Made by a program: the position numbers and the translations under genes. Shown in pieces: positions 4,670 through 63,451 of a stretch of 64,000 nucleotides of DNA. This DNA comes from Polytrichum commune. Its lineage: Eukaryota; Streptophyta; Polytrichopsida; Polytrichales; Polytrichaceae. The stretch covers positions 49,843,169 to 49,907,168 of the forward strand of contig OX485806.1 of assembly GCA_950295325.1 (NCBI GenBank). The letters run 5' to 3'. Below the pieces are notes generated by a model. It had not been told where the DNA came from and did not search any database. It worked only from the letters and a program-made list of their open reading frames with translations. How positions within the stretch are numbered: position 1 is the stretch's first letter; each line of letters starts with the position of its first letter.

Positions 4670-7600
4670 ACAAATTACAACCAAAATTGATTGTGGAGAT
4701 CTAAGTTTCTATTGGCGCCCACAACCCACTCAACTACTATGGTTAAACATGCATCCTACATGCATATTGCATGTAACAATGTCCACTACCATTATTTTCC
4801 TATATTTCTAAGCACTGAACATCTACAAAGATATCTTCACTCCAACTTCCCAACATCTAAAGCTTCAATGTTATCTTTGTCATTCATGCCAAGAATTTTG
4901 ACTCAGCAATGGCATAGTCTCCCAACTTCTCCAACATCTACAACAATCTCCTTCCTACAATGTCTTGCAACTTCCAAAATATGATTTGAGCTCATTTATG
5001 ATCCCTTCCATATTATGTTGTTAAGCAAGGATTTAAAGTTCTTTGATTGTCTAGGTCCATCTCATATTTCGTACGTTTCTCCTCAATTTAGAAATTGTGG
5101 TCCACCCCTCCCCAGAAATAGATATGAAACTCAATTACCAACCAATGCAATTATAACATATGCACCTCAAATTTAATCCTAACCATTGCACCTTAATAAT
5201 TGGCATCCAACAAGTTTGCATTTTCATTACACATACAAGTGACCTAGGTATTAAGCATCCCATTATGAGCTTAGGAATATGCATCTTTGACTACATAATT
5301 TTGCTAACAACATCAATAGGGCAAATACCCACAATGTTGCAAATACGCTACTAGTTGAAACTACCTTGTTTGCATAACAACAAAAATTGCATTGTCAATA
5401 TCAATATTGACAATATAATTGCATAAAAAACATAAGATTGAAGGTCATATTTAACTCACAAACTTGGCATTGGTTTTTTTTGCTCTGCAAGTTCCTAAAT
5501 GATGAAATGAGCCTATGCTCATTCAAACTTGGAAGGCTTTGTGGATTGGTTTGAACACAATATTTTCATGTTGCAACACCTCTTCCGCAACCAAAGCCTC
5601 CTACAACTCAACTATGCACAAAGTAGTTCTTTTTGTAAGCACACCTATTGTACAAATGATAATCCTTGCCAAAAATTGCTTCATGTGCATTAGTTTAAAT
5701 AAAATTTCTAAGACAAAGTTGTCATTCACTCCTCCCCCTCCAACCACGTCTCAAGTTTGCAAATGAATGAATTTTAAAATGTATATCTTGTTCAAACCAT
5801 TTTAAGTGCTGAAGGAATCATCGATGGCTTACAAATATGTGCAGTGTTGCATTTCTCCTCAAAACATGCCAATTGGCTCCTATGTATTGGTAATTATCTT
5901 TGCAGTTGTTTTTGTAGTTGCAATGTTGGCATTTTTTGTTTTTGCTTCTCATTAAGAACACCAATTTTTTTTCAAGGCATAGATTTGTATTCATAGTTTT
6001 TGCCACTATTCACATACCAAAAAACCATGAATGATTAAGTGGCGAATCCCACATTTGGGTGTTGAGAGAATGAAACTTGTTGTCCTACTAATAGACCATG
6101 TGCCACACCTTGTATTATCCATCATTATGTATGGTTGTCTAGTAGTTGAAGCCACATAAAGTGTTGGCAATATTTGAATGATGGTAATTTTTATTTTAGT
6201 TTTTAAAGAGAAAAAATCACTATCTTAACAACGTGGCCATTCTTAGTTTTAAAAACATTTGGGAGCTATGCATTGTATTTGACTATACCCCTTCCCTAAA
6301 ATCCTATCTAGAATTTTCTAAATAACAATGACATTATAGTGGCTCAAGCTCGTGGAATAAACCTCAAACTACTCACATATTTTTCATCCCATTATGTTTC
6401 CATTACAAACACATCATTACCAAGGTCATATAAATGTATACATAACTTATACTCCAGGGTGTGTTACAATCTTGAACCACAAGTTCTTGAGACCTTGAAA
6501 CCATTTGATTTTCATGTATGGGGAACCCTCATGCAATAAATGCGTATTTTGTATGATATTATTTCTCAATGTTGGAGGAATCATTTTATTGTGAAACCTA
6601 AAACCAATCCTATGATGGAAACATGTTTGTTGTTGTAAATGGCATTGTTGTCCCACCAAATTTTGAAATCAATCTATTCCATTATTTATCATTCTTTCAA
6701 TGAATACCACAAGTTTTTAAAGTCTATAGCCAATACACATATTTATTGTTTATTTATTGATTTATCTGAAGTTACTTTAAGGAAAAAATCCACAATATAT
6801 TTGTGTTGTGATGGACTTCCACATATGTTTTGAAATATGATTGGTTTCATTAAATGCAGTTTGGGTGACCCATTTGTCCCCATTGTGAAATGGAAGGAAA
6901 ATCATGGTCACAAATGCTTACACATTAGTAAAAATGACTTTGTAATAACAATTGATATTTGTATACCATTAGAACATGGGAAGAGTAATTCCTAACTATT
7001 GGTTCCCTAGGTGCTAGGATTACATACTAATGGAGTCATCTAGATAGAAATAGGTTTTGTAAACTTGATGTGATAGGAATTTTACAAGGATTCACATTTG
7101 TGTGTGGTCATACACGTATCATTAATTTTATTTGATAAATCCATTGGCACATTTCCCAATTCCTTAATATTAGCATGTCATCTCAATTTGTATTCACCAA
7201 AACTTTGATATGGAGCAAAATCATTCTCACAATTTTTTATGGTTTATGGTCTTCAAATAATGTCTAGCCAAGAAAACACCAATTATTGATCTTTCATGTT
7301 TTACCTGATTAGTACCAAACCAAGTGCAAATGTTGTGAACTATTATAAATCATGATAGTTTGTCATGCAAGGGACTACCATTATGCCCCATTAAAAACAT
7401 CCATTTTATGCTCCAAAATGCTTGTAAAATTGTATCACCCCCAACATCACCCAATCCTATGACATGTTTGAGATTTGAGACACACTTGTGGTCAATTTCA
7501 GCATACAAAAACCTATAAGAGTGGCAAACGGGTTGTCCCATGCAACATGTTTTATCATATTATTTTTGTTTTTTGCAAGGAATTTGGCCCATCAAATTGT

Positions 7601-7865: not shown

Positions 7866-8337
7866 CATGATGTGGGAGCACACGAACACCAAAAGTTTCC
7901 GGATAGGCGTTTTTCAATGTCTAATCCGGTTTGTCCGGATGATCCGAGTATCGTCTAGGGATTCTATGAAGTGTAGGATGTCAAAGACCTTTTTTTCCTG
8001 CTTGAAAATTGACCACCGGCCGGATCGGCTTTCCGGATTCGGATGGTCCTTTGGAAGTCATTGTTCCGGGACTTGCCTTTCGGATTAAACCTCTATAATT
8101 AAGTCTTACTCCTATGTGCATCTTTACTCAATACCTACCTATCTATATCCTACCTCCAATGATGATTTGGTTCATCCAGTGAAGACGTCCCTGTATGGTT
8201 AGAATCCAGATTTCTCTCACAACCAGTCTTGATCGGCCTAATCTTTCTTGGCAAGTCACACAGAGAATCCGGATGGTGCCCCGGAACTACAACGACAAAA
8301 ATGTCAAGATTCGTCCGGATATCTGTTAATCCGGCAT

Positions 8338-8792
8338 AACTGGGCGATCCGAGCCACTTTCCGGATTGCTCCGTCCAAGGGTTGTGAGACCTCTTCAGAA
8401 GGTCGGATGGCGTAAGTCCGACACCTCCCTCATCTTACCCAATCCTAACGATGGCTATCTCACATGGACGTTACCCAAGCATCCGGAATAATGAGGTTTC
8501 TTTCCCACTACTCGCTGGAAATGACCTCCGGACCAAAACCCTAACCGTTTCGGTTTTTCTCCTCCTTCCGACAGACCGATCCGGCTACAAAGAACTTAGG
8601 TTCTACTAAGTCTGAGATGACTGGGCGATCCGTACCACTTTCCGAATTGCCCCGCCTAAGGGCCGTGAGACCTTTTCAGAAGGTCGGATGGCGTACGTCC
8701 GGCACCTCCCTGATCTTACCCAGTCCTAACGACGGCTATCTCACGTAGACGTTACCCAGACGTCCGGAATAATGAGGTTTCCTTCCCACTAC
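8338..8792. repeat. Diverged direct duplication, ~175-bp units 281 bp apart
   Basis: Units near 8338-8515 and 8619-8792 share ACTGGGCGATCCG, TTTCAGAAGGTCGGATGGCG, CACCTCCCT, TCTTACCCA and GGAATAATGAGGTTTC. The spacer between them contains more CCGGA motifs. It lies in the non-coding left part of the 6.1-kb element and probably forms subterminal or regulatory repeats. Confidence 0.65.
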
Positions 8793-18689: not shown

Positions 18690-18694
18690 TTTGT

Positions 18695-19634
18695 TGTCGC
18701 GACCCTTGCTAGTTTTTCTCCACTTAGCTCAATCGCTTTCCAACTCTAGCAAGTGTCCCGAGCGCTAACCTGCACATCCCACGCACATGCATGGTTAGCT
18801 TTCAAAACCGCGGACCTTCAATCCCATATTTGGTCACCAAACCCTCCTACACATGCATTCGGGACTCTTTCCCCTTAGTAGGTAACCCATCGCTAAGGTG
18901 GACTTCCATCCATGGAAGTCCACTCCCTACTTGGTCATAGTGTTGCTAGGACAACACTACAACCACCCGGAGCACATTGCCAAGTATGCTCCGGGGGGGT
19001 CGGTCGGCAAAGCCGCCTCACCCATATAAGCCTCTAGGACTTTTGGCGGGGCCCCTCCCCCACCGTCAACATCCCTTTTGTCTCTCTACCAAGAGTTGGG
19101 GCCAAGTAGACATTTTCCCTTAGCCGCTGGGTCTAGAAGCCTCCCTGCAGCTTCAGACCTTCATAACTTCCACGTGCGGTCTTTGAATCTAACAACCAAC
19201 CACTCTATCGTCATCTACATTTCACGTACATCCCTATGGACACCTCACTTGCCCTATTCGGGCAAGTATTGAGGAAGTTATGCCTGTTTAAGCCTTTGCA
19301 GTCCCGGGAGCCACTCCCAGGCCCCTGCTGTTCCAGGGCGCTGTCCCGGGACAGCATCCCACTCAAAGTGCCATATCTCCTAGCTCACACCTCAGATTGA
19401 GGTGTTCTTTAGCATTCTAGAATTGGGACGCCATAAGCTACTCATAGCTTATGGCTTTACCCTCATGACTCCTAGTCTTTGTGGGTGGGAGGCGTTCTAA
19501 ACGCCCGGGGCCCTCACCCACATTAGGATCACTTGGTCCCTCTCACCAATGGCGTCACAAGTCCCGGGTGTCACTCCGGGGTCCCCCTTGTGCCCATGGT
19601 GTTGCGGGCACTCCTCATGGAGAGGTGCGCGACA
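18695..19634 (-). mobile_element. Solo LTR, family 1 (copy A), inside the MULE
   Basis: 940 bp with ends TGTCGCGACC and GCGCGACA, flanked by a perfect 5-bp duplication TTTGT (18690-18694 and 19635-19639). It splits the transposase reading region. Minus orientation follows copy B, where a polypurine tract precedes the LTR on the minus strand. On the plus strand it contains the family block CACCCATATAAGCC, which holds a TATA-like core on both strands. It is younger than the MULE it sits in. Confidence 0.92.
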
Positions 19635-25000: not shown

Positions 25001-25852
25001 AACATTCAAAATTTCAAACTAGTTTGATTCAAACAATACAAGTACATGTACAAAAACATGTTTGATCCCAATGTCTCCAAATTTTAGCAAGTGACATGTT
25101 TGTTTTTGGGGAGAAAAGGGGGTTTATGGAAATTAATGGATTGAATGTTTTGTCCCAATGTAATTTTGCCATTCTTTAAGAATACATGACTGCCTAATAA
25201 CTTTGGCATCCTAATTGATGTTCCTCGACTCAATCTCAAATATCAAAAACTTCAAATTCACACAAAATTGCCTCCTTCATTTGCCATACAAATTGTATAA
25301 GGCATTCTATCATGAAGGCAATAAAAACAACCATTCCTACACATAATGCCATGTTTGATGGATAGTTCAAAAGATATGTTGAGATTAAGTCCCACAAAAG
25401 AAGGATGTGAGCAAATCCACTTTGACACTAAAGGAATTGAAGCCATTGTAGTAGATATGGAATTGCACCATTTTAGCCACCAGACCTTATATACAACTTC
25501 CACCAAAAAACTCAAAAAAATTGAAGTTTTTCTAAAGTTTTTCTAAGTTTTATATCAAAGCTCCAATGTCTTTAATATTCAATTTTTACAAACCACAAAA
25601 CTCAACAAAAAGAACCAAAATAATTTGAACAATTTTTATTTAGAAATTTTTTTACGTGTGTTGAGCCCACAGAAAATAATACACTAAATATGATATTTAC
25701 TGTCACCAATACCAAATGTTAATCCAACATTAGTTGGCATTATTTGTAAAGTTTTTGGGGTATTATATATTTATAGTGTTGCAATTATAATCATTTACCA
25801 AATGTATTTTCATCCAAATTTTAATTGTTCATGATACTATTTTATCACAAGT
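22048..25852. other. AT-rich region without identifiable genes
   Basis: No ORF over ~100 codons, no recognised motif and no terminal repeat pair. It resembles 4670-7865 in composition. A hairpin lies at 23710-23776. Confidence 0.35.
23710..23776. repeat. Hairpin with ~24-bp arms
   Basis: The left arm with CTTGGAGCGGGCC and GACTTTCTTT (23710-23734) pairs with the right arm containing AAGAAAGTC and GGCCCACTCCAAG (23753-23776) around an 18-base loop. It stands out in otherwise AT-rich DNA. It could be a mini-element, a small-RNA-type foldback or chance; nothing distinguishes these. Confidence 0.6.
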
Positions 25853-26779
25853 TGTCGCAACCATTGCTAGACTCCTTAACAATCTCGCCAATTTTCATTT
25901 CTAGCAAAGGTTACGAGCGCTAACCTTTTCGCATTCCGCCATGCCAATGGTTAGCTCGTTCTACCTCAAACCTTATAGTTCATAGGAGGGGAACCAACCC
26001 TCCTACTTTATTTTTGGGACTCACCCCTTCATCGGTAACCAATCACTAGATGTGGACTTACATCCATGGAAGTCTAATCTTATGTTGATCATCGCATTGC
26101 CGGAACAACACTACAACAACCCGAACCATATTAGGCAACTATGGCCTCACAATGGGCCAAAGCCCATGGAGACCGTTCGGCCTCGGGTGGGTGAGGCCAC
26201 ACCACCTCACTCATATAAGCCTCTAGCACTCTACACGGGGCCCCTATCCCACCGCCAAGAGACCTTTTGTCTCTCTACCAAGAGTTGGGGCCAAGTAGAC
26301 ATTTTCCTTTAGCCGTTGGGCCTAGAAACCCTCAGTTGCTTCAAACCATCATGACTTCCTTGCATGATATTTGATGCAATAAAAAACCACTCCATCGTCA
26401 TCTACGCTTCACGTAGATGCCGATGGACTCCACATTTGCCGCATTCAGGCAAATATTAAGGAAGTTATGCCTGTTCAAACCTTGGCAGTCCCGGGAATCA
26501 TTCCCAGGCAAATTGTCATAACTCCTAGCTCACACCTCCGATTGAGGTGTTCTTGAGCATTATGGAATCCTCATGCCATAGGCTACGCATAGCTAATGGC
26601 TTTACCCTTGGTTCTCCTAGTCTCCGTGGGTGGGAGGCGTTCCCAATGTCCGGGACCCTCGCCCATACTAAGATCACTTGGGCCCTCTCACCAACGGTGC
26701 CACAAGTCCCAGGTGTCACTCCGGGGTCCCCCTTGTGCCCATTGCGTTTCGGGCACTCCTCATGGAGAGGTGTGCAACA
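25853..26779 (-). mobile_element. LTR, family 1 (copy B), probable 3' LTR of the chromovirus
   Basis: 927 bp. Plus-strand start TGTCGCAACC; the far end is GTGTGCAACA. Read on the minus strand, the LTR is directly preceded by a purine-rich tract containing TTTGGTGGGGGTGAG (26780-26795), the expected primer for plus-strand synthesis. This fixes the family orientation as minus here and makes this the 3' LTR of the element to its right. Confidence 0.75.
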
Positions 26780-27599: not shown

Positions 27600-28548
27600 A
27601 AGCTTCTTTTTATTGGAACCTTTAGCCCTAGTTTCTTCAAAGTGCTTCACCAATTCCTTGGCGTTCATCATGTCTCTTGCCGCTACCCAAACGGTTTCTT
27701 TCTCATAGTATCTTCACAATTTCACCAAATAGTCATTTGTAATTTTTATTTACTTTTCACTTGGGCTTCCTACACTTGAGGATGCCCTCTTACCTCATGT
27801 TCCAAATGACCCCCACAAGGCCAGGAAGTGGCCTAATCACTTGCTTGTGATCGGGCCACAAGGTGTCTTCCTTAAATGGTTTTAATAATGAGACATGAAA
27901 TGTCGGATGCACTTTGATCTCGGGAGGTAATTCTAACTTATATATATCCTTGAATACTTGTTCCAAAATTGGAAATGGAGCTCCAATTTAGGACATGAAC
28001 TCTGCAGTAAGGCCTTTCCCAAGGTGAAGTTGTCCACATTCAACAACACCTTTTTGGCCCACCTCATAGTCCACTTCGCGTCTTCCGGCATTGACTTGCA
28101 CTTCATAGCATCTTCAAGCTTTCTCCACCAACAACTTGGTCATGTCCAAGACTTGTTTTTGTTCCTTGGCCAAGTCCTCACCATCTTGGTTGAACTCTAG
28201 TGTTGAATGTGCCCCCTCGAGAGCTAGGTTAATAGGTTGGAGTGCATCCACTCCATAAGCCACCACGAATAACCACCCTTTGGTAGCCAAATGCGTGGCT
28301 ACATTACAATTACACTCTGCTCAACCCACATAGTCCGCCCAATCTCGTTGGTCCGCCCCCACCAAGTTCCTCAAGTATTGCTTCAAGACTTCCTTCACAT
28401 GTTTTTTTCCCCCATCCATTTGGGAATGTAGGCTGGCTTAACCTTAATTTCATTCCCACCTCCTTAGAGAAGTGCATTGAGAATGCACCTGTGAACTTTG
28501 GATCTTGATCCGACACAATCACTATTGGCAACCCGTGGTGCCTCAACC
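27600..28548 (-). pseudogene. Chromovirus integrase (C-terminal half) and chromodomain
   Basis: Read on the minus strand from 28548, the first piece is RHHGLPIVIVSDQDPKF, carrying the second catalytic Asp of the integrase. Next comes HSQMDGGKKHVKEVLKQYL, where the usual catalytic Glu is lost, and the C-terminal region with YGVDALQPINLALEG. After further frame changes it reads HFMSLLKPFKED, and the segment ending ETVWVAARDMMNAKELVKHF matches the end of a chromodomain (the helix after the aromatic cage). In chromoviruses this domain steers integration to marked chromatin. Stops and frameshifts show that it is inactive. Confidence 0.8.
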
Positions 28549-29521
28549 TGTCGCAACCCTTGCTAGGTCCCTTAATAATCTTGCCAATTTTCAATTCTAG
28601 CAAAGGTTACGAGTCGCTAACCCTTCGCATTCCGCCATGCTAATGGATAGCTCCTCTTACCCCGGACCAATAGTTCATAGGAGGGAACCAACCCTCCTAC
28701 TTTGCTTTCGGGACTCACCCCTTAATCGGTAACCCATTTCCCCAATGTGGACTTCCATCCATGGAAGTCCAATCCTATGTTGATCATCGCGTTGCCGGAG
28801 CAACACTACAACAACCCGAACCATACTAGGCAACTATGGCCTCACAATGGGCCAATGCCCATGGAGGCCGTGCCGTTCGGCCTCGGGTGGGTGAGGCCAC
28901 ACCACCTCACCCATATAAGCCTCGAGGACTCTACACGGAGCCCCTACCCCACCGCCAACCAACCTCTTGTCTCTCTACCAAGAGTTGGGGCCAAGTGGAC
29001 ATTTTCCCTTAGCTGCTGGGCCTAGAACCCCCCAGCAGCTTCAGACCATCATAACTTCCTTGTATGATGTCTGATCATAACAACCAACCACTCCATCCTC
29101 ATCTACGCTTCACGTAGATGCCGATGGACTCCTCACTTGCCCCATTCGGGCAAGTCTTGAGGAAGTTATGCCTGTTTGAACCTTGGCAGTCCCGGGAATC
29201 ACTTCCACGCACTGCTGTACCAGGGCGCTGTCCCGGGACAGCACCCCACTCAAATGGCCATAACTCCTAGCTCACACCTCCGATTGAGGTGATCTTGAGC
29301 ATTCTAGAATCACCACGCCATGAGCTACGCATAGCTCATGGCCTCACCCTCATGCCTCCTAGTCTTTGTGGGTGGGAGGCGTTCCCAACGCCCGGGGCCC
29401 TCACCCACACTAGGATCACTTGGGCCCTCTCACCAACGGCGCCACAAGTCCCGGGTGTCACTCCGGGGTCCCCCTTGTGCCCATGGTGTTTCGGCCACTC
29501 CTCATGGAGAGGTGCGCGACA
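28549..29521 (-). mobile_element. Solo LTR, family 1 (copy C), inside the integrase
   Basis: 973 bp, plus-strand ends TGTCGCAACC and GCGCGACA. Flanks are CAACC (28544-28548) and AAACC (29522-29526), a 5-bp duplication with one difference. The flanking halves are consecutive parts of one integrase core in the same frame, so the insertion point is certain. It belongs to the same family as copy B. Confidence 0.92.
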
Positions 29522-30012: not shown

Positions 30013-31380
30013 TTAATGTATCCCTCCCGTATCTTGCATCATAAGTTTCCTTTGCCGGCACACATTTGCCACAAGGTTTGGATGGTTCTCATTTGCTTGG
30101 AATTTTTCCCGTCTACTTAGCGCATCCGGCACCACATTTCCATGGTCCGGTTTGTGGATCAAATCCACCTTCATAAGCGCCAAATTACCATGCCACTGCA
30201 ATGACTTGGCGCTCACTTGCGCTTGTATGTCAATATACTTTTATGACACATTGTCCGTGTAGACCTTTGTTATGTGCAACCCCAAATACTGTCGCCACAT
30301 CTTCAAGCAATGCACTACAACAAAGAAGTTCGTTATCATGAGTTGGTTGTCTTCTTTGACAACCATCGAGCTTCATGCTCCTATATGCAATGGCCATCCA
30401 TCTTACATCAACAATCCGCCATTGGCAACGTCATTCACCTCCGTATACACCTCAAAAACTTTCTCGAACTCTACAAACTTGAGCACAGGCGGCGAAGAGA
30501 ACTTGGTCTTAAGCTCCCCTAAGACTTGGTGACAAACATCATTCCACTCTTCGGATAGCCATTCCTTTCACAAGTCGGACAAGGTCGGATAACCATTGAG
30601 CTTTATGCCCCTATATGCAATGGCCATTCGTCTTGCATCAACATCCGCCAATGGTAAAGTCATTCTCCCCTGTATGCACCTCAAAAGGTTTGTCAACCAC
30701 GAACTTAAGCACGGGCAACAAAGAGAACTTGCTCTTAAGCTCCTCAAACACTTGGTGGCAAGGCTCATCCCACTCTTAGGATAGCCATTTCTTGCACAAG
30801 CTGGACAAGGTTCGACAACCATCGAGCTTAATGCTCTCATATGCAATGATCATCCATCTTGGATCAACATCCGCAAATGGTAAAATCCCTCGCCTCCATG
30901 TGCACCTCAAAGTGTTTGTCAAAACCCGGGAACTTGACCACATATTGTGAAGAGAACTTGCTCTTAAGCTCCCCAAAAGCTTGATGACAAGGCTCATCCC
31001 TCTTTTGGGATAGTCATTTTTCTTTAACAAATTGAGGATGGTCCTAGGAACCTTAGAAAAATCTCTAATGAAGTGGTGGTAATAGTTGGCTAGGCCAACC
31101 AATGACCTAAGCCTTTTTGAGTCAAGGGCCAATTCTCCTCTTGGATTGCCTTGACATTCTTCATGTTCGTTCACCAACTTTATTTGTCACCACATACCTC
31201 AAGAACTTAATCTCTTGTTGAGTAAAGTTGCTTTCCACTCCTTGGCGGTAACATTTTGAGCAACACATTGGTGAATACATCTTTGTATCTCACCAACATC
31301 CCACAAATGTGATTTGGGGGATATCCATCTTTCCTAGCCTCCCCATGAGTTTGTTGGAGTTGCTCCAATTGAACCACGAC
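30013..31380 (-). pseudogene. Chromovirus reverse transcriptase and RNase H, internally deleted
   Basis: At the right end (31360-31230) is a segment typical of the RT start (LVRYKDVFTNVLLKMLPP). It is followed almost at once by the RT end (ESNFTQQEIKFLRYVV) and RSLVGLANYYHHFIRDFSK; the fingers and palm with the YxDD box are missing, a deletion of several hundred bases. Then comes a connection and RNase H start repeated three times (30364-31015) and the RNase H tail (DHGNVVPDALSRREKF, 30213-30100). Without the palm this copy could not have made active RT. Confidence 0.8.
30330..31015 (-). repeat. Triplicated RT-RNase H connection, ~228-bp unit
   Basis: Three diverged direct copies share a plus-strand landmark near CATCGAGCTT at 30364, 30594 and 30820 and the phrase AGAGAACTTG followed by CTTAAGCTCC. 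On the minus strand each reads the same part of the protein (the LRASSL phrase, DVD-R, IAY-ES-KL). The ~228-bp period equals 76 codons, close to frame-preserving. Confidence 0.85.
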
Positions 31381-31422: not shown

Positions 31423-31900
31423 TCAACTTGGGTCCTCAAAAATACTGAGAAACTCCCTCCCTTGGCCCTTTAATACTTCGGTTGGTGCTCCAAAATGTGC
31501 CAACACACAATCCAAAAAGGCGGCCGCGGCCAACTTTGCAGAGTTTTGGGTTATAGCAACAAGCTCAATCCACTTGCTAAAATGCTCCACCATCACCAAC
31601 ACATACTTTACTTCACGTGGTGTGATAACCAATGGTCCTGCAAAGTCCAGCGACCAACGGTAGTCCAATCCCATAATAGGTAAGGGTTGTAACTAAGGTA
31701 ACAAGGTGTTAAAGCTAGACCTGACCCTGTCACAAATTTCACACCTCTTGACATAAGCAATCACGTACTGATATATGCCAGTCCACCAATATTGGCCACG
31801 TAGCATCGAATGTGTCCTGCGTATGCCAAAATGGCCAAGTTCCTTGTGCACTTGTCGCACCAAGGAGGCCTTCTGATCCGGTTTAGGGACAATACGCCTT
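31423..31900 (-). pseudogene. Integrase of the methyltransferase-bearing element
   Basis: The minus-strand ORF 31674-31423 reads WSLDFAGPL (first Asp), VKYVLVMVEHFSKWIELVAI, FLDCVLAHFGAPTEVL and QGREF. The second catalytic Asp, expected before QG, is replaced by Lys (KGQG). Upstream, read with stops, is a zinc-binding portion including YVKRCEIC. The sequence is cut just after SIFEDPS by the junction with the chromovirus, so the final Glu region is absent. Confidence 0.8.
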
Positions 31901-31917
31901 GTCCCATTTGACCATAA

Positions 31918-33568
31918 TTAAAATAACAAACCGTTTTCCCAATGGAACCTTGTTATTCGATGTCCAATCCTATTCCTTTCCATTGCCGACGTAGACAAAA
32001 GAAAGGTCGCTTGCTGAAGCTTATGCAATACGGGAATAACCTCCCATATATCCGCAATAGCTTGAGGTCGATTAGTCTCATCATCCGAGCCTTGTATCGG
32101 AACCTCAATAGCCGCACCAGAAAATAAAGTGAGGTAATCAACCGCGTGCCAACCTGGAACCGCCTCTCGATCACAATTTCCATGCCACCTAGCCCTGGTC
32201 AAGTCATCATCCAAACGACCTGGATTGCGTGAGAGTCCATCTGCATCCAATTTGGTAATCCTAGCACGGTGCACCACCTCAAAGTCATACTCCTGGAGCA
32301 ACAAAGCCCACCTAGCGAACTTGCTTGTAAGCTTATCCGACTTCATGAGCCACCGTAATGGCCAATGGTCAGTTACCAAAGTAAAGCGCTGACCATAAAG
32401 ATATGGCCGAAAATGGGCAATAGCCCACGCCGCCGCCAATGTTTCTACTTCGTAGGACGAATAATTGGCCTTCGTCGTGTTATTGCTTCGCGAAGCGTAA
32501 GCAACAACATACTCCTAACCAAAATCAACTTTCTGAGTGAGAACTACTCCCAAACCCAATGAACTCCAGTCCGTCTACAACTGGAAGGATTTGGAGACAT
32601 CCGGACGTCAAAGAACTAGAGCCACACCTAGGTTCTGCTTCAATGTCTTAAATGTTTGTTGTTGCTCACAACCCCAGGTCCAAGTTTGGTCCTTGCTCGT
32701 CAGAATGGTGAGATGCTTGGGGATCAAGCTAAAGTTTTTGACGAATTAACTATAGTAATTCACCAAGCCCAAGAAAACACGAAGTCTCGGCACATCAACC
32801 GGTGCCAGAATCTTTTGCAAGGCGTTCACCTTAGCTTACTATACTCCGAGACCTCCAAGAATAATCATATAACCTAGTTATGCTAGTCAGTCATGGAAAA
32901 ACTTGTACTTGCCATGGTGCAAACGCAATCCCCACCGCTGCAACTGCTAAAAAACGGCTTGCAGATGCCTTACATGCTCATGTGATGTCTTGTTGAAAAT
33001 GATCACATCATCAATGTAACACCGAGCAAAGGGCAAGCAAGAGAGAACTTGGTCCATCACTCTCTAAAACTCAGCATGTGCATTCTTGAGGCGAAATGGA
33101 AGAAACTTCCAATGATACAGTTGATCATTCCCATCATGATCAACTCCCCAGAATACGGTTTTCACTCGATCTCCCGCAATGGGAGCTAGTGATAGCCGGA
33201 TCTCAAGTTAGGGTGTTGAAGACCCGAGAAAATCTGATGGCATTGAACAATTCCTGCAGGATTGGCATGGGATACCGATCTGACTTAGTCTTCTGATTAA
33301 CTAGACGGTAATTCCCGCGCATCCATTTTTCCGTCCAATTGCCAAAGATACCCTTCTTCAATGGCATAACCGTAGCACAAGAATACTCCCCGTTTAAAAG
33401 TTTGATTAGCTTTGCTGCCAAAAGCTTTTGGCACCTAGCCTGAACGCCAATCCACTCGGAAACACTGAGCCTATAAGGTCTCCGAAAAATGGGATGGTCG
33501 TCCTGCAACTGAATGTAGATGGGTTTCCCTTTATAACCTTCAAGATCCTGAAGGCTAAAGCAAAACAC
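31918..33568 (-). pseudogene. Reverse transcriptase and RNase H of the methyltransferase-bearing element
   Basis: The RT begins near 33568 (IYIQLQDDHPIFRRPYRLS), continues through NYRLVNQKTKSDRYPMP and, after a stop, reaches the active-site box YIDD at 33018-33007. The connection follows (LGLVNYYS, TSKDQTWTWGCEQQ). RNase H is in the 173-residue ORF 32439-31918 (FTLVTDHWPLRWLM, KFARWALLLQEYDFEVVH, LDADGLSRNPG). The order is normal for Ty3/gypsy. Several stops and shifts lie between 33200 and 32440. Confidence 0.88.
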
Positions 33569-34003
33569 CTATAGTACGAGCAAATAAACGCTCGTACTTT
33601 CCATGCCTCATCTCCAGTGAAATGAGGGCCTAATTCTAATGGTCAATCGTCAAACATTGTGGTCTCCCTCTCCACCAAAGGGGAGCCACTTGGTGCTAGC
33701 ACGGACTCTAACTGCTACTGAGAGGAGGGGGCATTAACCATGCCCCCAACCTCCATGCTAGCAATAGAGTCCGTCTCCTCTTTATCACCACCAATATGTG
33801 ATGATGAAGCCACCTCCGCAGGTGAAGAAGCCAAAGCAGTAAACCCGATGATCTTGAAGCTCCTCCATCACATGTTGTTTGAATCGAAAGTTTCGTTTGG
33901 CTTCTCCAACCATGACCTTAATTCCCTTCTCTATGGATGTGGACCGTTGTGCCCCCTGACCAGAGTCTTCAGCCCCCAGAGACAAGAACTGGTCAATATG
34001 ATG
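33569..34003 (-). other. Linker between methyltransferase and reverse transcriptase
   Basis: A 66-codon minus-strand ORF (33985-33785) is basic and unrecognised. It probably belongs to the polyprotein, between the methyltransferase end and the RT start. Confidence 0.35.
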
Positions 34004-35066
34004 TCATTGCAATGCAAGGCATAAATCAACAGTCCACACCATGGTATGAAGGTCCATGGCTTGGTCCAACACGAAACATCGTTGGCCCTTAGAAAGGCCA
34101 GGAGCAACGGTGGTGCTGGTGTGGAATCCCATGGCATGCTCACGTTCGCCAGCCAATGATTTGGTGTGAGCATCCCACACCATACCCAACCCCCGATCGC
34201 GGAATACGAATGACTGTGAAAATATCATGAAAGTGGGGAAGGCCCTCCGTGGTGTCGCCACTTTGTTGACCAATGCCAACGGAAGTAAATCATCTCAAAC
34301 CACTGGCAAAGAGGTTCAGTTTGGATACAAGATGTCATCCATTTTTTAATCAAAAGGTGGAGACACTGCAAAAAATATTACAATTAATATGGATAACGGT
34401 GCAAGGTTGGTCCAAATTCAACGAGTTCAGTGGGCATAAAAACCAATGCTCGCGACATCCACAAAAATGGAATCCCAATAAAGGTAAATTATCAAAGATA
34501 TATCCTAAAGGGGACGGTTGGTGGGCAAACCACCACTGCATGAGCCGGATGAGGGCCCAAAATAGACTAGACCGGGGATCCTCTAGGCCTCGGCCTGCTC
34601 CAGCACGGGAGTGGCCCTAGCATGGCCATCCCGCGATCACTACATCCACTGGACCCAAGTGTTACAAGTTTTCCTCACTAATAAGTATAACATCATGAGG
34701 GAAACATGCAAAACACCCACAAATAGCAGTTGGGTGTAACTGTTGTGGGTACAACACCATCAACTGGTGGAAATGGTGGCAAACCACACAGGTGGACACG
34801 TGACTGTTGTCCACATAAACATACTGTCGAATTGTGAAGCCAACCTCTAACACGGCCGCCAATCCCATTCCAATGCCCCCAAAAACTTCCACAAAAGTAA
34901 TCCCCTTGTTCGGAGGGCGCCACACAATGGGATGTGCCAACGCCGAGGGCCTAGCCGGTATGACCGGCGTCGTAGAACCGAGAGAGAGTATAATATCCTC
35001 ACATCGCAGGAGTAGCTCTGTGAAATCACGCCAAGGAGGAAGAGGATCTTTGGGATGACACACCAA
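34004..35066 (-). pseudogene. Retroelement-encoded cytosine-5 DNA methyltransferase domain (decayed)
   Basis: Motifs occur in canonical, unpermuted order on the minus strand. Motif I FVEVFGGIGMG (34895-34863) is in the S-adenosylmethionine site, followed by YVYVDN as motif II. Motif IV is VVIAGWPC with the catalytic Cys (GWPC at 34631-34620), then GHSRAG and LEDPRSSLFW. A motif VI-like YIFDNLP replaces the usual ENV. A motif VIII-like segment lies near 34440-34415 before IWTNLAPL. Motif IX is EREHAMGF (34147 on) and motif X LDQAMDL. Breaks: stops at 34662-34664, 34617-34619 (just after PC) and two near 34425-34433, plus a frameshift near 34470. Such enzymes methylate DNA cytosine. It is not DRM-like, since DRM enzymes have permuted motifs. 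Upstream is the protease, downstream the RT. Confidence 0.88.
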
Positions 35067-35259
35067 TGCACTTTAAGGTGGCATCTCCCATTGATCCTTA
35101 GCACTCCCCATAAATGCCAAAGACTCCTCCAATAAAACCATGGATAATGGTACTATGGTAGGGGTAGCCACAAATGCCACATGAATAAATTCCCTGCGGC
35201 CATCCCCAGTCGACCAACCTGGTCGGATCCACGCCTCCTCAATCTAGTTGTCCATACCA

Positions 35260-35560
35260 AAACCGAGAGGATAAAGTGATTGCTGACCAACTAAAATATC
35301 GTAGTTGGTCACCTATGTTACCGCACACATGAGAATAGAAGGTACGGGTGGATCTCTAGGCTGTAGTGGCTCCCGAGTATAAGTAGTGGCCCGCTCCACG
35401 TGGCCAATGGATGTGATGATAATAAATGGGCAAAGAGCCAAGTCATTGGCCATCAACCACAGATTTGGCGTAAGTTTTTTTGCCAATCATAACAAGTTGT
35501 ACCCCTGAATTCATCATCACACATTGGGGAGCAACTTGAATTGTGTTGCCCCAGTTCGAC
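35260..35560 (-). pseudogene. Aspartyl protease of the methyltransferase-bearing element
   Basis: Minus-strand reading gives VMMNSGVQLVMIGKK, in which the retroviral-type active site D-S/T-G has become NSG (35511-35503), so the catalytic Asp is lost. After a frame change it continues ANDLALCPFIIITSIG and TNYDILVGQQ, the typical flap and end of a Ty3/gypsy protease. It lies between gag and the methyltransferase. Confidence 0.7.
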
Positions 35561-35580
35561 TGTCCACCAAAATACCGAAA

Positions 35581-36029
35581 TCATTCATCATACGTACAAC
35601 GCCAGGTCGAATGCCTCAACGCTCGCGAGCTGGTCGAGCAGTTACAACTGAGAGATAAGTTGCGCCCCCAAAGCTGGTGAATCATAAGATGAGGTTGGCT
35701 CTTGGCCATCCAGGCGTGTGCGTCAAAAGATGCAATGGCCTCCACTGCAAGCCTCGCTCGCTGTCTGGCCGCCTCCATGGACCCTCCGTGGCAAGAAGGT
35801 CAGCGGTGGCTTGAGCCATAGTCAGAGAAGATGGGGGTGCCTTTCCTTCCAAAATCCTACATGCTAAATGAAAAACCTTAGCTTGGATGCCAGATGACGA
35901 CCACCCCATCGCTGTGAACAAAAATGTGTGCAACACTTTGGGTTCCAAAGTGTGCATCACGTCAATCGCTGGATTCAAAGCCTCCAAGCTTGAATTACGA
36001 TCATTGATAGATTGGACATCATCTGCCAA
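35581..36029 (-). pseudogene. Gag-protease spacer of the methyltransferase-bearing element
   Basis: A minus-strand ORF of 115 codons (36029-35682) followed by a 65-codon frame (35778-35581) is helical in composition (AIDVMHTLEPKVLHTFLF, MAQATADLLATEG). No domain is recognised. It is on the gag-to-protease path and is most likely polyprotein sequence. Confidence 0.45.
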
Positions 36030-36098
36030 TCCAAAAGACGATGACAGACATGTCTAGCAATATGATCCGCGGGAGTATTGCCCGAGCTTAAAAGCTGT

Positions 36099-37435
36099 CT
36101 ACCGACCCCCCATGTGGTCGAAGGTGTGGCTCATGACACGGATTAAACACGTATCGCCGCTGCCGAACTCATCACCTCCCCTGAGGCTTCGAACATATAA
36201 AAAATGTGGAGTGGAAAAACTAGCCTGAGCTCCGGAATAAGACAATGAATCCAAAATTTGGCCGGATGACGCCAAACTTTTGAACCTATCTTCCAAGGCT
36301 CCAATCTTTGCCTCCAACATTTTTTTCTCGTTCGGAAGAAGACGTTTATATGGATGGAGAGCAAAGTAGTTTTCCATTGCATGATTGTTCCGCCCACAAT
36401 GGGAACACTTCAACTGCTTGGGTAAATGATTATCCGCCCCTTCCGTCGAATTCTTAGCGGGAACAACTAGTTTCCGCTTTGGATTACCTACTATATGGAC
36501 ATTTCTTTGTTTCAAAGGACAATCCTTCTTAGCATGGCCCGCCTGCCCACAAGACCAACAATATAAGCTCTTGTCCACCTCTGCCGCTGCCAGTCATGTA
36601 GTCGCAATCGGCACCTTTCGGGATTTGCTTGAATTCACTAGCAAGAACACCAAATCAGTGGTATCGTGTTGACATAAGACATGATCACACTACTCCACAA
36701 CGGCGAAAGCCTTTGCAAGTGTGGCCCGACCACCATAATCCATGATGATCCTAGGTAGAGCTAAGTCAATGAGGCATTTGTCAATCTTTGACAAAAAGAC
36801 CTTCACAAATTGGTTTTCCGCGAAAACACCTTCAGATTCCGTGGCAAATCTCGCCAACCTTGTGGTACGAGGTGTATCCTCTTTCTCCCACCGGAAGTCT
36901 TTGATCCACTGCATTTAATCTCGATGAAAACCTCCATATTGCTTCTCTAATTGAAGCTAGAATTCCTGTAGAAGATCAAAACCAGGCGGAGCCCCTCAAG
37001 AGGCTAATGCCGCTTGTGTAGCCTTGACATAGGGGGAGAGTAAGAAAATCGAGTTTGACGAACTCGCGGATATGAAAGCATGAACGTTTTCTTGAGGTTC
37101 ACTAAGAACGGTTCCGCTCCACGTGGCCAATACGTGAGCGTTCTCCACTTGTTCCGTCTTCACCATAAGAGGGGCTAATAAACTAGAAGCCACACCGTCC
37201 TTGACCTGGCGTAGCACCATCCAATGAGCGTCCCTCCATTATTCACAAGTCTGGAGCGCCTCGTGCTCCAAATGTTGGAGCAAAACTTGAATGCATATTT
37301 GTCATTAAAACTGGAATTACGTTGACGTTTCATTTGCATCCACATCGTAAATCGAATTTTCCAGTCTTGCAGGAAAATGGTCCATGCCCGACCGGAAAAC
37401 CTGTCTCGGACTCCACCTCGCGTCTCGTCTTCCAT
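36099..37435 (-). pseudogene. Gag of the methyltransferase-bearing element
   Basis: Broken frames cover the capsid part (37435-36690; for example FVKVFLSKIDKCLIDLALP) and the nucleocapsid ORF (36578-36099). The latter has a CCHC zinc knuckle CWSCGQAGHAKKDC (CX2CX4HX4C, from about 36560) and a second one, CSHCGRNNHAMENY, whose last Cys is Tyr. Two knuckles suit an RNA-binding Gag. Frameshifts separate the parts. Confidence 0.75.
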
Positions 37436-37654
37436 ATTGTCAAAAGTCCCTACCTCAAGGACGTGAGAACGCGTGGTAGTCCCCTAAACCGAAGTAGGCT
37501 GAAAATCCTCGTCGGTTGCTACCACTGGTTCAACGTCTAAGAGGTCCGATGATTAATTTTTCGATGCTCTTGGAGATGGCGAATGATAATGTTGGCTCCG
37601 AATCGTAACCATAAACCCACAATGAATATGATGACTAGAGCCAACAACCTACAT

Positions 37655-45956: not shown

Positions 45957-46169
45957 TAAATGGTGTGCCCGTCAAAAGCTTGGAACGGTTGATGGTTTGG
46001 GTAGTAATTGATGTGGCAAAAGATCATGTATGGAGCGGAGTAGCATTTTTGTTTGAGGTAAGTCAGCTTTATTCTAACCCTTGAAATCCCACCTTCGTGA
46101 ATCATTTTTTTTACCTTTTACTTGAATTTTATTTTTATTTCTCATTGTAACTGCTATTTCTTTTCACCG

Positions 46170-47126
46170 TGTCGCAACCCTTGCTAGCCCCCCTTGACCA
46201 TCTTGCCAATTTTCATTCCTAGCAAAGGTTGAGAGCGCTATGCTAATGGTTAGCTCCTCTCACGCCGGACCTTATAGTTCATAGGAGGGAACCAACCCTC
46301 CTACTTTGCATTCAGGACTCACCCCTTAATCCATAACCCATTTCTACATGTGGACTTCCATCCATGGAAGTCCAATCCTGTGTTGATAATTGCATTGCCG
46401 GACCAACACTACAACAACCCAAAGCATACTAGGCAACTATGGCCTCACAATGGGCCAAAGCCCATGGAGGCCGTGCCATTCCGCCTCGGGTGGGTGAGGC
46501 CACACCACCTCACCCATATAAGCCTCTAGGACTCTACGCGAGGCCCCTACCCCACCGTCAAGAAACCTCTTGTCTCTCTACCAAGAGTTCGGGCCAAATA
46601 GACATTTTCCCTTAGCCGCTGGGCCTAGAAGCCCCCAGCAACTTCAGACCATCATAACTTCCTTGTATGATGTCTGTTGCTAACAAGCAACCACTTCATC
46701 TTCATCTACGCTTCACGTAGATGCCGATGGACTCCTCACTTGCCCCATTTGGGCAAGTATTGAGGAAGTTATGCGTGTTCGAACCTTGGCAGTCCCAGGA
46801 ATCACTCCCACGCACTACTGTACCAGGGCGCTGTCCCAGGACAGCGCCCCACTCAAATTGCCATAACTCCTAGCTCACACCTCCAATTGAGGTGTTTTTG
46901 AGCATTCTAGAATCACCCCGCCATGAGCTACACATAGCTCATGGCCTTACCCTCATGCCTCCTAGTCTCCGTGGGTGGGAGGCGTTCCCAACGCCCGGGG
47001 CCCTCGCCCACACTAGGATCACTTGGGCCCTCTCACCAACGGCGCCACAAGTCTCGGGTGTCACTCTGGGGTCCCCCTTGTGCCCATGGTATTTTGGGCA
47101 TTCCTCATGGAGAAGTGCGCGACTCA
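46170..47126 (-). mobile_element. Solo LTR, family 1 (copy D)
   Basis: It starts TGTCGCAACC on the plus strand and ends GTGCGCGACTCA, slightly degraded. It matches copies A, B and C throughout (CACCCATATAAGCCTCTAGG, CTTCACGTAGATGCCGATGG, GGAGGCGTTCCCAACGCCCG). The flanks CACCG/CACTA show no clear duplication. Confidence 0.85.
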
Positions 47127-50425: not shown

Positions 50426-50558
50426 TCTTCACAGTTTGACAAGTCATAATTGACAATTTGTATAATTTTTGCATTTTTTATCCGAATGGTGTGGATTTTA
50501 GGTATTTGAAAGCTAATGATATGTACGAATGGATTAATTGTAATAAAATCATGATTAT

Positions 50559-51505
50559 TGTTCCAACCTTTACTAGTAGCCTTTAACCAACCTGGTCATT
50601 TTTCAATTCTAGTAAGGGTCACAAGTGCTAACCATTTGCATTCCGCCATGCAAATGGTTAGTTCCCCATATCGAGGATCTCTTAGTCCATAGGAAAGGGA
50701 CCAGCCCTCCTACACTTGCATTTGGGACTCACTTCTTAATTGATAACCAATGGTAAGATGTGCATTTTTATTCATGAAAGTTTAAACTTTAATTGATCAT
50801 TGTGTTGCCGGAGCAACACAATAACAACCTGAACCATACTTTGCAACTATGCCCCCATGTTGGGCCAATGTCCGTGAAGGCCATGCCATTTGACCTCGGG
50901 TGGATTTGGCAACCACAATGCCTCACCAATATATGCCTCTAGGACTTTTGGCAGGGTCTCTATCCCACCATCAATAAACCTCTTGTTTTTCTACCAAGAG
51001 TTGGAGCCAAGTAGACATTTTCCCTTAGCCGCTGGAGCTAGAAACCCCTAGCACCTTCTAAACAACACAATTTCCTTGTATGATTTTTGATGGTTCACGT
51101 AGATGGTGATGGACTCTTTGTTTGCTTTATTTGGGCAAGTATCAAAGATGTAATGTTTGTTCAAACCTTGGTAATTCCAGGATCCACTCCCAAGCCGTTG
51201 CTGTATCAAGGCATTATCCCAAGAGAGCGTCCCATTCAAATTGCCATATCTAATAGCTCACATCTCCAATTGAGGTGTTTCTTGAGCATTTAAGAATCCA
51301 CATGCCATAAGCTACGCATAGCTCATGGCCTTATTCTGGTGACTCCTAGTGTTGGTGGGTGGAAGGCGTTTCCAACGCTCAGGGTCTTCACCCACACTAG
51401 GATCACTTGGGCCCTCTCACCAACGGCGGGGTAAGTCTCGGGTATCATTTTGGGGTCTGCTTTCTGCCCATGATGTTTCAAAATCTCCTCTTAGAAAGTT
51501 GTACG
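50559..51505 (-). mobile_element. Old LTR, family 1 (copy E)
   Basis: It aligns along its length with copies A to D (CGCATTCCGCCATGC-type start block, GCCAAGTAGACATTTTCCCTT, CTAGGATCACTTGGGCCCTC) but is clearly the most diverged, with both ends eroded. Boundaries are approximate and no target duplication is recognisable. Confidence 0.75.
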
Positions 51506-63098: not shown

Positions 63099-63451
63099 GA
63101 ACCTTCACCGAGGCCAAACGGCACGGCCTCCATGGGCATTGGCCCAATGCAAAGGCATAGTTTCCTAATATGGTTCGGTTTGTTGTAGTGTTGTTCCAAC
63201 AACGCGATGATCAATATAAGATTGGACGTTCATGGATGGAAGTTCACATCTAAGAATTGGTTACCGATTAAGGGGTGAGTCTCGAAAGTAAACTAACAGG
63301 GTTCGTTCCCCTCTTATGAACTATAGAGTCCGGGGTAGGAGGAACTAACCATTAGCAAAGCGGAATATAAAGGGTTAGAGCTCATGACCCTTGCTAGAAA
63401 TGAAAATGATGAATATAATTAAGGGAAGCTAATGAGGGTTTCAACAAAAAA
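63099..63451 (+). mobile_element. Truncated LTR, family 1 (copy F), opposite orientation
   Basis: About 350 bases are the reverse complement of the first ~350 bases of copies A to E. They include ACGGCCTCCATGGGC, GTTGTAGTGTTGTTCC and AACTATAGAGTCCGGGGTA and end at 63451 with the equivalent of TGTTGAAACCC. The rest of the LTR is missing to the left, with the break at about 63099. Confidence 0.85.

Follow-up and report, generated by a model that had tools for sequence, protein, structure and literature searches.

The window, a stretch of 64,000 nucleotides from Polytrichum commune (G000:C4:49843169-49907168), contains on its minus strand a broken retroelement that runs from gag to integrase. 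By tblastn with pieces of an open copy of the same family (L028), the window element was found to be colinear from gag at 37648 to integrase at 31432; the limits given below are those of the L028 query pieces, not independent boundaries, and all features lie on the minus strand. The gag region (35677..37648) is broken, shows 58-67% amino acid identity to L028 and includes a CCHC zinc knuckle within 36102-36593 (zf-CCHC, E=6.3e-5), the name gag resting otherwise on position. It is followed by a broken retropepsin-like protease (PR) region (35034..35636; 62% to the L028 PR piece), a broken DNMT3-like cytosine-5 DNA methyltransferase (MTase) domain (33962..35033; 73% amino acid identity to L028 in both halves) and the C-terminal tail of ORF1 (33718..33961; 61-69%). 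A UAG stop, read directly from the sequence at 33715..33717 and followed by CAG TTA (a case of CAR-YYA), stands between ORF1 and ORF2. Beyond it lie a broken reverse transcriptase (RT) region (32635..33714; main stretches 80-82% to L028), RNase H (32149..32631; 83%; PF17917 E=1.7e-23 on 31921-32514) and an integrase with H2C2 zinc-binding part and DDE core, the 3' end of which is missing (31432..32148; 81%; Integrase_H2C2 E=2.1e-18, rve E=1.5e-9).

The original prediction had placed a minus-strand cytosine-5 MTase between protease and RT, at 34004-35066, which is within about 45 bases of the limits found here, and both the colinear L028 alignment and a profile search of the translated minus strand bear it out. 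Translated in frame, with stops written as X, the stretch of 183 residues matched PF00145 with E=5.6e-8 and 33 bits, above the cut-off of 22; the match to TIGR00675 (1.2e-8) reached 34.9 bits, below the curated cut-off of 100.65. The domain is interrupted by stop codons and a frame change, and its stop-free pieces alone gave E=0.15 against Pfam for one of the three and nothing for the other two, while those of the RT region gave a weak Pfam match or none. The flanking gag, RNase H and integrase described on the same strand were likewise recovered, through matches to the CCHC knuckle, RNase H, H2C2 and the DDE core. That prediction made no mention of four features treated below: the UAG that follows the MTase, the split direct repeats, the genomic family and the PHD finger.

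Neither terminus of this copy and no family end repeats were found within the window, nor were Rfam families or tRNA genes. Other repeats are present. A repeat of about 950 bp occurs at 18693-19634, 25851-26779, 28543-29521, 46164-47123 and 50558-51502 with 67-90% identity, and again at 63108-63446, where only about 340 bp remain, inverted. At 30355-31030, adjoining the truncated integrase end, a unit of about 228 bp occurs three times in a tandem-like array, its copies being 61-86% identical.

A genomic family with open copies

The genome searched comprised 407.8 Mb in 64 contigs, seven of which account for 406 Mb. The PF00145 profile found at least 123 places over the cut-off (123 scored of 353 candidates, all 123 passing), one of which is a host DRM gene; a stop falls within the matched stretch in 13 of these rows, and for nine the frame is exactly 1386 codons long. 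A search with the domain of one of the family's lineages (A-type) found at least 108 places at 69-100% identity (108 scored of 619 candidates). Twenty copies of 9.9 kb, picked mostly for long open frames, were examined together with a further 20 short places, mostly low-ranking rows. When 28 loci (L002-L009 and L042-L061, some coinciding with the long loci) were tested with the domains of both lineages, A and B, all matched except L042. One of the 27, L058, did so at only 45-49% identity, a distance that sets it apart as a third lineage, C. In the copy of this lineage (L062), which is broken, about 3.3 kb of additional sequence separates MTase from RT, but gag-PR-MTase still precedes RT; identity to lineage A amounts to 45-49% for the MTase and 70% for the RT. 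Short tandem repeats occupy 5969-6347 of this copy, as oriented, inside the extra 3.3 kb.

Outside this genome, no relatives of the element were found in a prokaryotic genome contig collection. In a viral contig collection, likewise without element relatives, the MTase query yielded a single short match (37 residues, 38%), and the RNase H query and the alignment A1 yielded none. Phage records yielded matches to generic MTases, 466 records in all, each below 60% identity.

Open copies follow the order gag-PR-MTase-RT-RNaseH-integrase-PHD. An ORF1 of 1356-1386 codons with the MTase inside it is present in 14 of the 20 long copies and an ORF2 of 1045-1048 codons in 11, both being open in nine. 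Domains were assigned in L018, searched as eight pieces that leave out the last 86 codons of ORF1, and were placed in other copies by colinear alignment. In ORF1 of L018, Pfam matched protease-like and MTase domains, the aspartyl-protease matches being weak (E=1.4e-4, under the curated cut-offs), and no gag profile; the CCHC knuckle of L028 scored 7.9e-4, just under the cut-off. PF00145 scored 48 bits for both L018 and L028. ORF2 of L018 matched RT (RVT_1, E=1.2e-30), RNase H (1.3e-39), integrase H2C2 (9e-19) and rve (1.1e-14), and after the integrase, at the C-terminal end of ORF2, a PHD finger (7925-8707, E=1.7e-11) which is possibly a chromatin-targeting module.

These copies decide whether the MTase belongs to the element. 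The broken state of the window copy and the other repeats around it could suggest that a cellular MTase gene was inserted later in one gypsy copy, leaving two unrelated things side by side. Against this stand the 108 or more places with an A-type domain, the MTase inside an ORF1 of at least 1356 codons in 14 of 20 long copies, and its same place in the diverged lineage C as in A and B. The host DRM2-like gene is also different: located at G000:C2:4702600-4704900, with two exon pieces matching DRM2 (E=6e-52 and 9e-45), it has a rearranged motif order and is separate from the element MTase. DRM is described as confined to streptophytes (PMC12344493), which places the host among them. A self-comparison of three copies showed no flanking repeats, and the insertion with its own target duplications that had been named as a way in which the prediction might fail was not borne out. 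Later insertion is thus given almost no probability; the MTase is real, no chance match and integral to a Ty3/gypsy-type element, of which the source genome holds many other copies in the order protease-MTase-RT, several of them open.

Class and conservation of the methyltransferase

Twelve stop-free domains of the family were aligned. The motifs run I-IV-VI-VIII-IX-X, the normal order that had been read from the window alone, with PCQ, ENV and HRPRW invariant, and FGGIGTG, ERERAMGF and GQAMDL variable at a few positions. A profile of these domains matched DNMT3A best among PDB sequences (1.1e-13, 54 bits), ahead of DRM (34 bits) and M.HaeIII (31 bits), and the 60 PDB sequences with matches up to E=10 included no DNMT1 or CMT. 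Single-sequence PDB searches with L018 and L028 agree with this result, and the broken window copy alone gave a tie between M.HaeIII (24.2) and DNMT3B (24.0). On profile scores and unrearranged motif order, the enzyme is classed as DNMT3-like. The DRM class was rejected, the motifs being unrearranged. An AlphaFold model of the domain, built with 12 near relatives, was poor (mean pLDDT 40) and lent no support.

Divergence between lineages A and B was estimated from 14 of the 20 copies for ORF1 and from nine for ORF2, picked mostly for open frames. The dN/dS ratios, which are rough because dS is saturated, were 0.134 for the MTase, 0.131 for PR, 0.122 for gag and 0.115 for PHD, against 0.025-0.039 for RT, RNase H and integrase. 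The dS mean excluded pairs whose pS was 0.74 or higher, an exclusion felt most in gag, the PR-MTase linker, RNase H and the integrase end. Between MTase and UAG the sequence is only loosely constrained, with a ratio of 0.55. Within lineage A the MTase ratio is 0.25, and within lineage B it is 0.66 at a dS of 0.018, a divergence so low that the value says little. With dN/dS of about 0.13 between two old lineages, the MTase appears to be under selection.

It might be argued that the MTase has been kept as a non-catalytic, nucleic-acid-binding or structural part of Gag-PR, as the domain evolves faster than RT (dN 0.28 vs 0.05 between A and B). However, the catalytic PCQ, ENV and HRPRW are invariant in all 12 stop-free domains, and the dN/dS equals that of the protease. 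A non-catalytic role is accordingly judged improbable.

A putative leaky stop, element ends and a possible mechanism

ORF1 and ORF2 lie in the same frame, one codon apart, with gag-PR-MTase before the UAG and RT-RH-INT after it. The codon is followed by CAA UUA or CAG UUA in lineage A and by CAA UCA or CAA CCA in lineage B. UAG-CAR-YYA was found in 34 of 34 aligned rows, which correspond to 27 distinct places, the window and all 20 long copies among them; adding the lineage C copy (UAG CAA CCA) brings the total to 28 of the 28 distinct places at which the junction was readable. According to PMC2754532, CAR-YYA is the hexamer required in TMV. Plant reporter readthrough is given there as 32% for the TMV context and 11% for that of BNYVV, figures that hold for CAA UYA contexts, the CAG UUA and CAA CCA of the present family not being among them (PMC2754532). 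The UAG thus looks like a type-I leaky stop of the tobamovirus (TMV-like) kind, and its conservation after the MTase suggests that the MTase should be made at a Gag-like dose. Readthrough in a plant gypsy element is not in itself new, because candidates among rice gypsy elements are mentioned in the same source (PMC2754532); the unusual point is an MTase on the Gag side of the UAG.

Split direct repeats, with B1 on the left and A1-B2-A2 on the right, were found in 10 of 12 copies with upstream flank and in L011; two given upstream flank, L014 and L024, showed no end repeats, and L015 shows the split-repeat arrangement too, though the locus edge cuts off its left end. B is about 334 bp long in A-type copies and longer, about 440 bp, in the B-type; A is about 106 bp. 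In 10 of 11 copies B1 and B2 are 99.1-100% identical (94.6% in L021), and on this repeat identity of at least 99% the ten are classed as young. All 11 copies with both ends readable start with TGTCACG, end with CACGACA and are bordered by a 4-bp target duplication; such TG...CA-type ends (TGTC...GACA) and duplication length fall within the 4-6 bp of Ty3/gypsy elements. Two full LTRs flanking the element were not found in these 11 copies, the split direct repeats standing in their place. Immediately ahead of A1 is a G-rich tract resembling a PPT, and A1 meets B2 in the sequence GACA-GC-TGTC. On the assumption that A-GC-B is the replicative LTR, we infer that the integrated form would be a two-LTR circle opened inside one LTR.

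The B1 ... A1-B2-A2 arrangement of the 11 copies would also suit a tyrosine-recombinase retroelement of the DIRS/Ngaro/PAT-like kind rather than a gypsy element. This is countered by the presence of the integrase zinc-binding part and DDE core, by the lack of any recombinase match in the eight L018 pieces (the last 86 ORF1 codons lying outside them) and by 4-bp target duplications in 11 of 11, and a tyrosine-recombinase origin is considered very improbable.

With a probability of roughly 0.85, as judged from sequence comparison, the element in the window is a degraded member of a high-copy Ty3/gypsy-type family that took up and kept a DNMT3-class cytosine-5 MTase. The mechanism proposed for this family begins at the UAG, where most ribosomes would stop and release Gag-PR-MTase while a minority would read through and add RT-RNaseH-integrase-PHD. 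The MTase would enter the particle at a Gag-like dose and there may methylate the cDNA or circular DNA of the element ahead of its insertion by integrase. This self-methylation step is advanced tentatively, at somewhat under even odds, as the likeliest role among those considered, and its candidate benefits include disguise as methylated host DNA, cDNA protection, self-limitation, and placement in silent chromatin with the PHD finger. A fuller scenario, regarded as speculative and rather unlikely as a whole, would have the element pack DNMT3 at a Gag-like dose via UAG readthrough, methylate itself as a circle, and be opened by integrase at the internal palindrome (GACAGCTGTC, the A1-B2 joint) instead of the LTR ends, giving a permuted two-LTR insertion with 4-bp duplications.

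The window copy itself bears a mark of methylation. At sites where five A copies agree, transitions were counted at 20.8% of 404 CG, 20.5% of 346 CHG, 10.9% of 1481 CHH and 4.7% of 2633 A/T positions. This CG/CHG decay signature indicates that the copy was probably methylated in the past, despite its family's enzyme, without singling out the enzyme responsible. Cytosine methylation silences plant transposons, yet a cytosine methyltransferase is encoded, and apparently maintained, by this family, and the UAG arrangement predicts both the dose of that enzyme and its place, the particle. Split repeats combined with integrase-type duplications raise the question by what route the DNA of such elements is closed and integrated. 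With young copies at hand, and nine of 20 with both ORFs open, it can be tested whether the element gains by self-methylation.

Comparison with known systems

Ngaro/PAT-type elements combine split direct repeats with a tyrosine recombinase. As a comparison of family features only, without sequence comparison, the split direct repeats are common to them and the present family, whereas the latter has a DDE integrase and target duplications in place of the recombinase. Among plant Ty3/gypsy lineages (Phygy, Selgy, chromoviruses), the elements have paired LTRs. They resemble the present family in PR-RT-RH-INT, and most lineages show duplications of 4 or 5 bp; the main text of the survey makes no mention of methyltransferase or PHD (PMC6317226). 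SymbioDIRS-Dnmt3 and SymbioLINE-Dnmt of Symbiodinium are DNMT-bearing retroelements, the SymbioDIRS enzyme being described as methylating CG (PMC5890265). Both belong to other retroelement classes, in contrast to the gypsy-type polyprotein with DDE integrase described here. A 2025 survey reports retroelement-embedded DNMT3s in streptophytes and dinoflagellates (PMC12344493). The literature searched, which excluded subscription papers and preprints, gave no account of a land-plant gypsy element that bears a DNMT, nor of a stop codon read through downstream of an MTase in a retroelement.

Among published elements, KnitGypsy-Dnmt3 of Klebsormidium nitens comes closest. Klebsormidium has a genome far below 408 Mb in size. 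De Mendoza and others described a Dnmt3 in the Pol ORF of this gypsy element, under purifying selection (de Mendoza et al., 2018; PMC5890265), so that a DNMT3-bearing kind of gypsy element is already known. By the published description, both families have a Dnmt3-class, non-rearranged and intronless MTase in a gypsy coding region, conserved key residues and purifying selection, and the Klebsormidium element has its repeats arranged as in DIRS with gypsy domains (PMC5890265, Fig. 4 legend), a DIRS-like arrangement that is shared as well. Again by description only, the two may differ in the placement of the MTase, given as the Pol ORF there (PMC5890265) and found here in ORF1 ahead of UAG-CAR-YYA; for the present family, 4-bp target duplications are shown as well. 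The main text of that paper makes no mention of readthrough, PHD, 'split direct' or 'direct repeat'. What the present family adds is the placement of the UAG, the target duplications together with split repeats, and the PHD finger.
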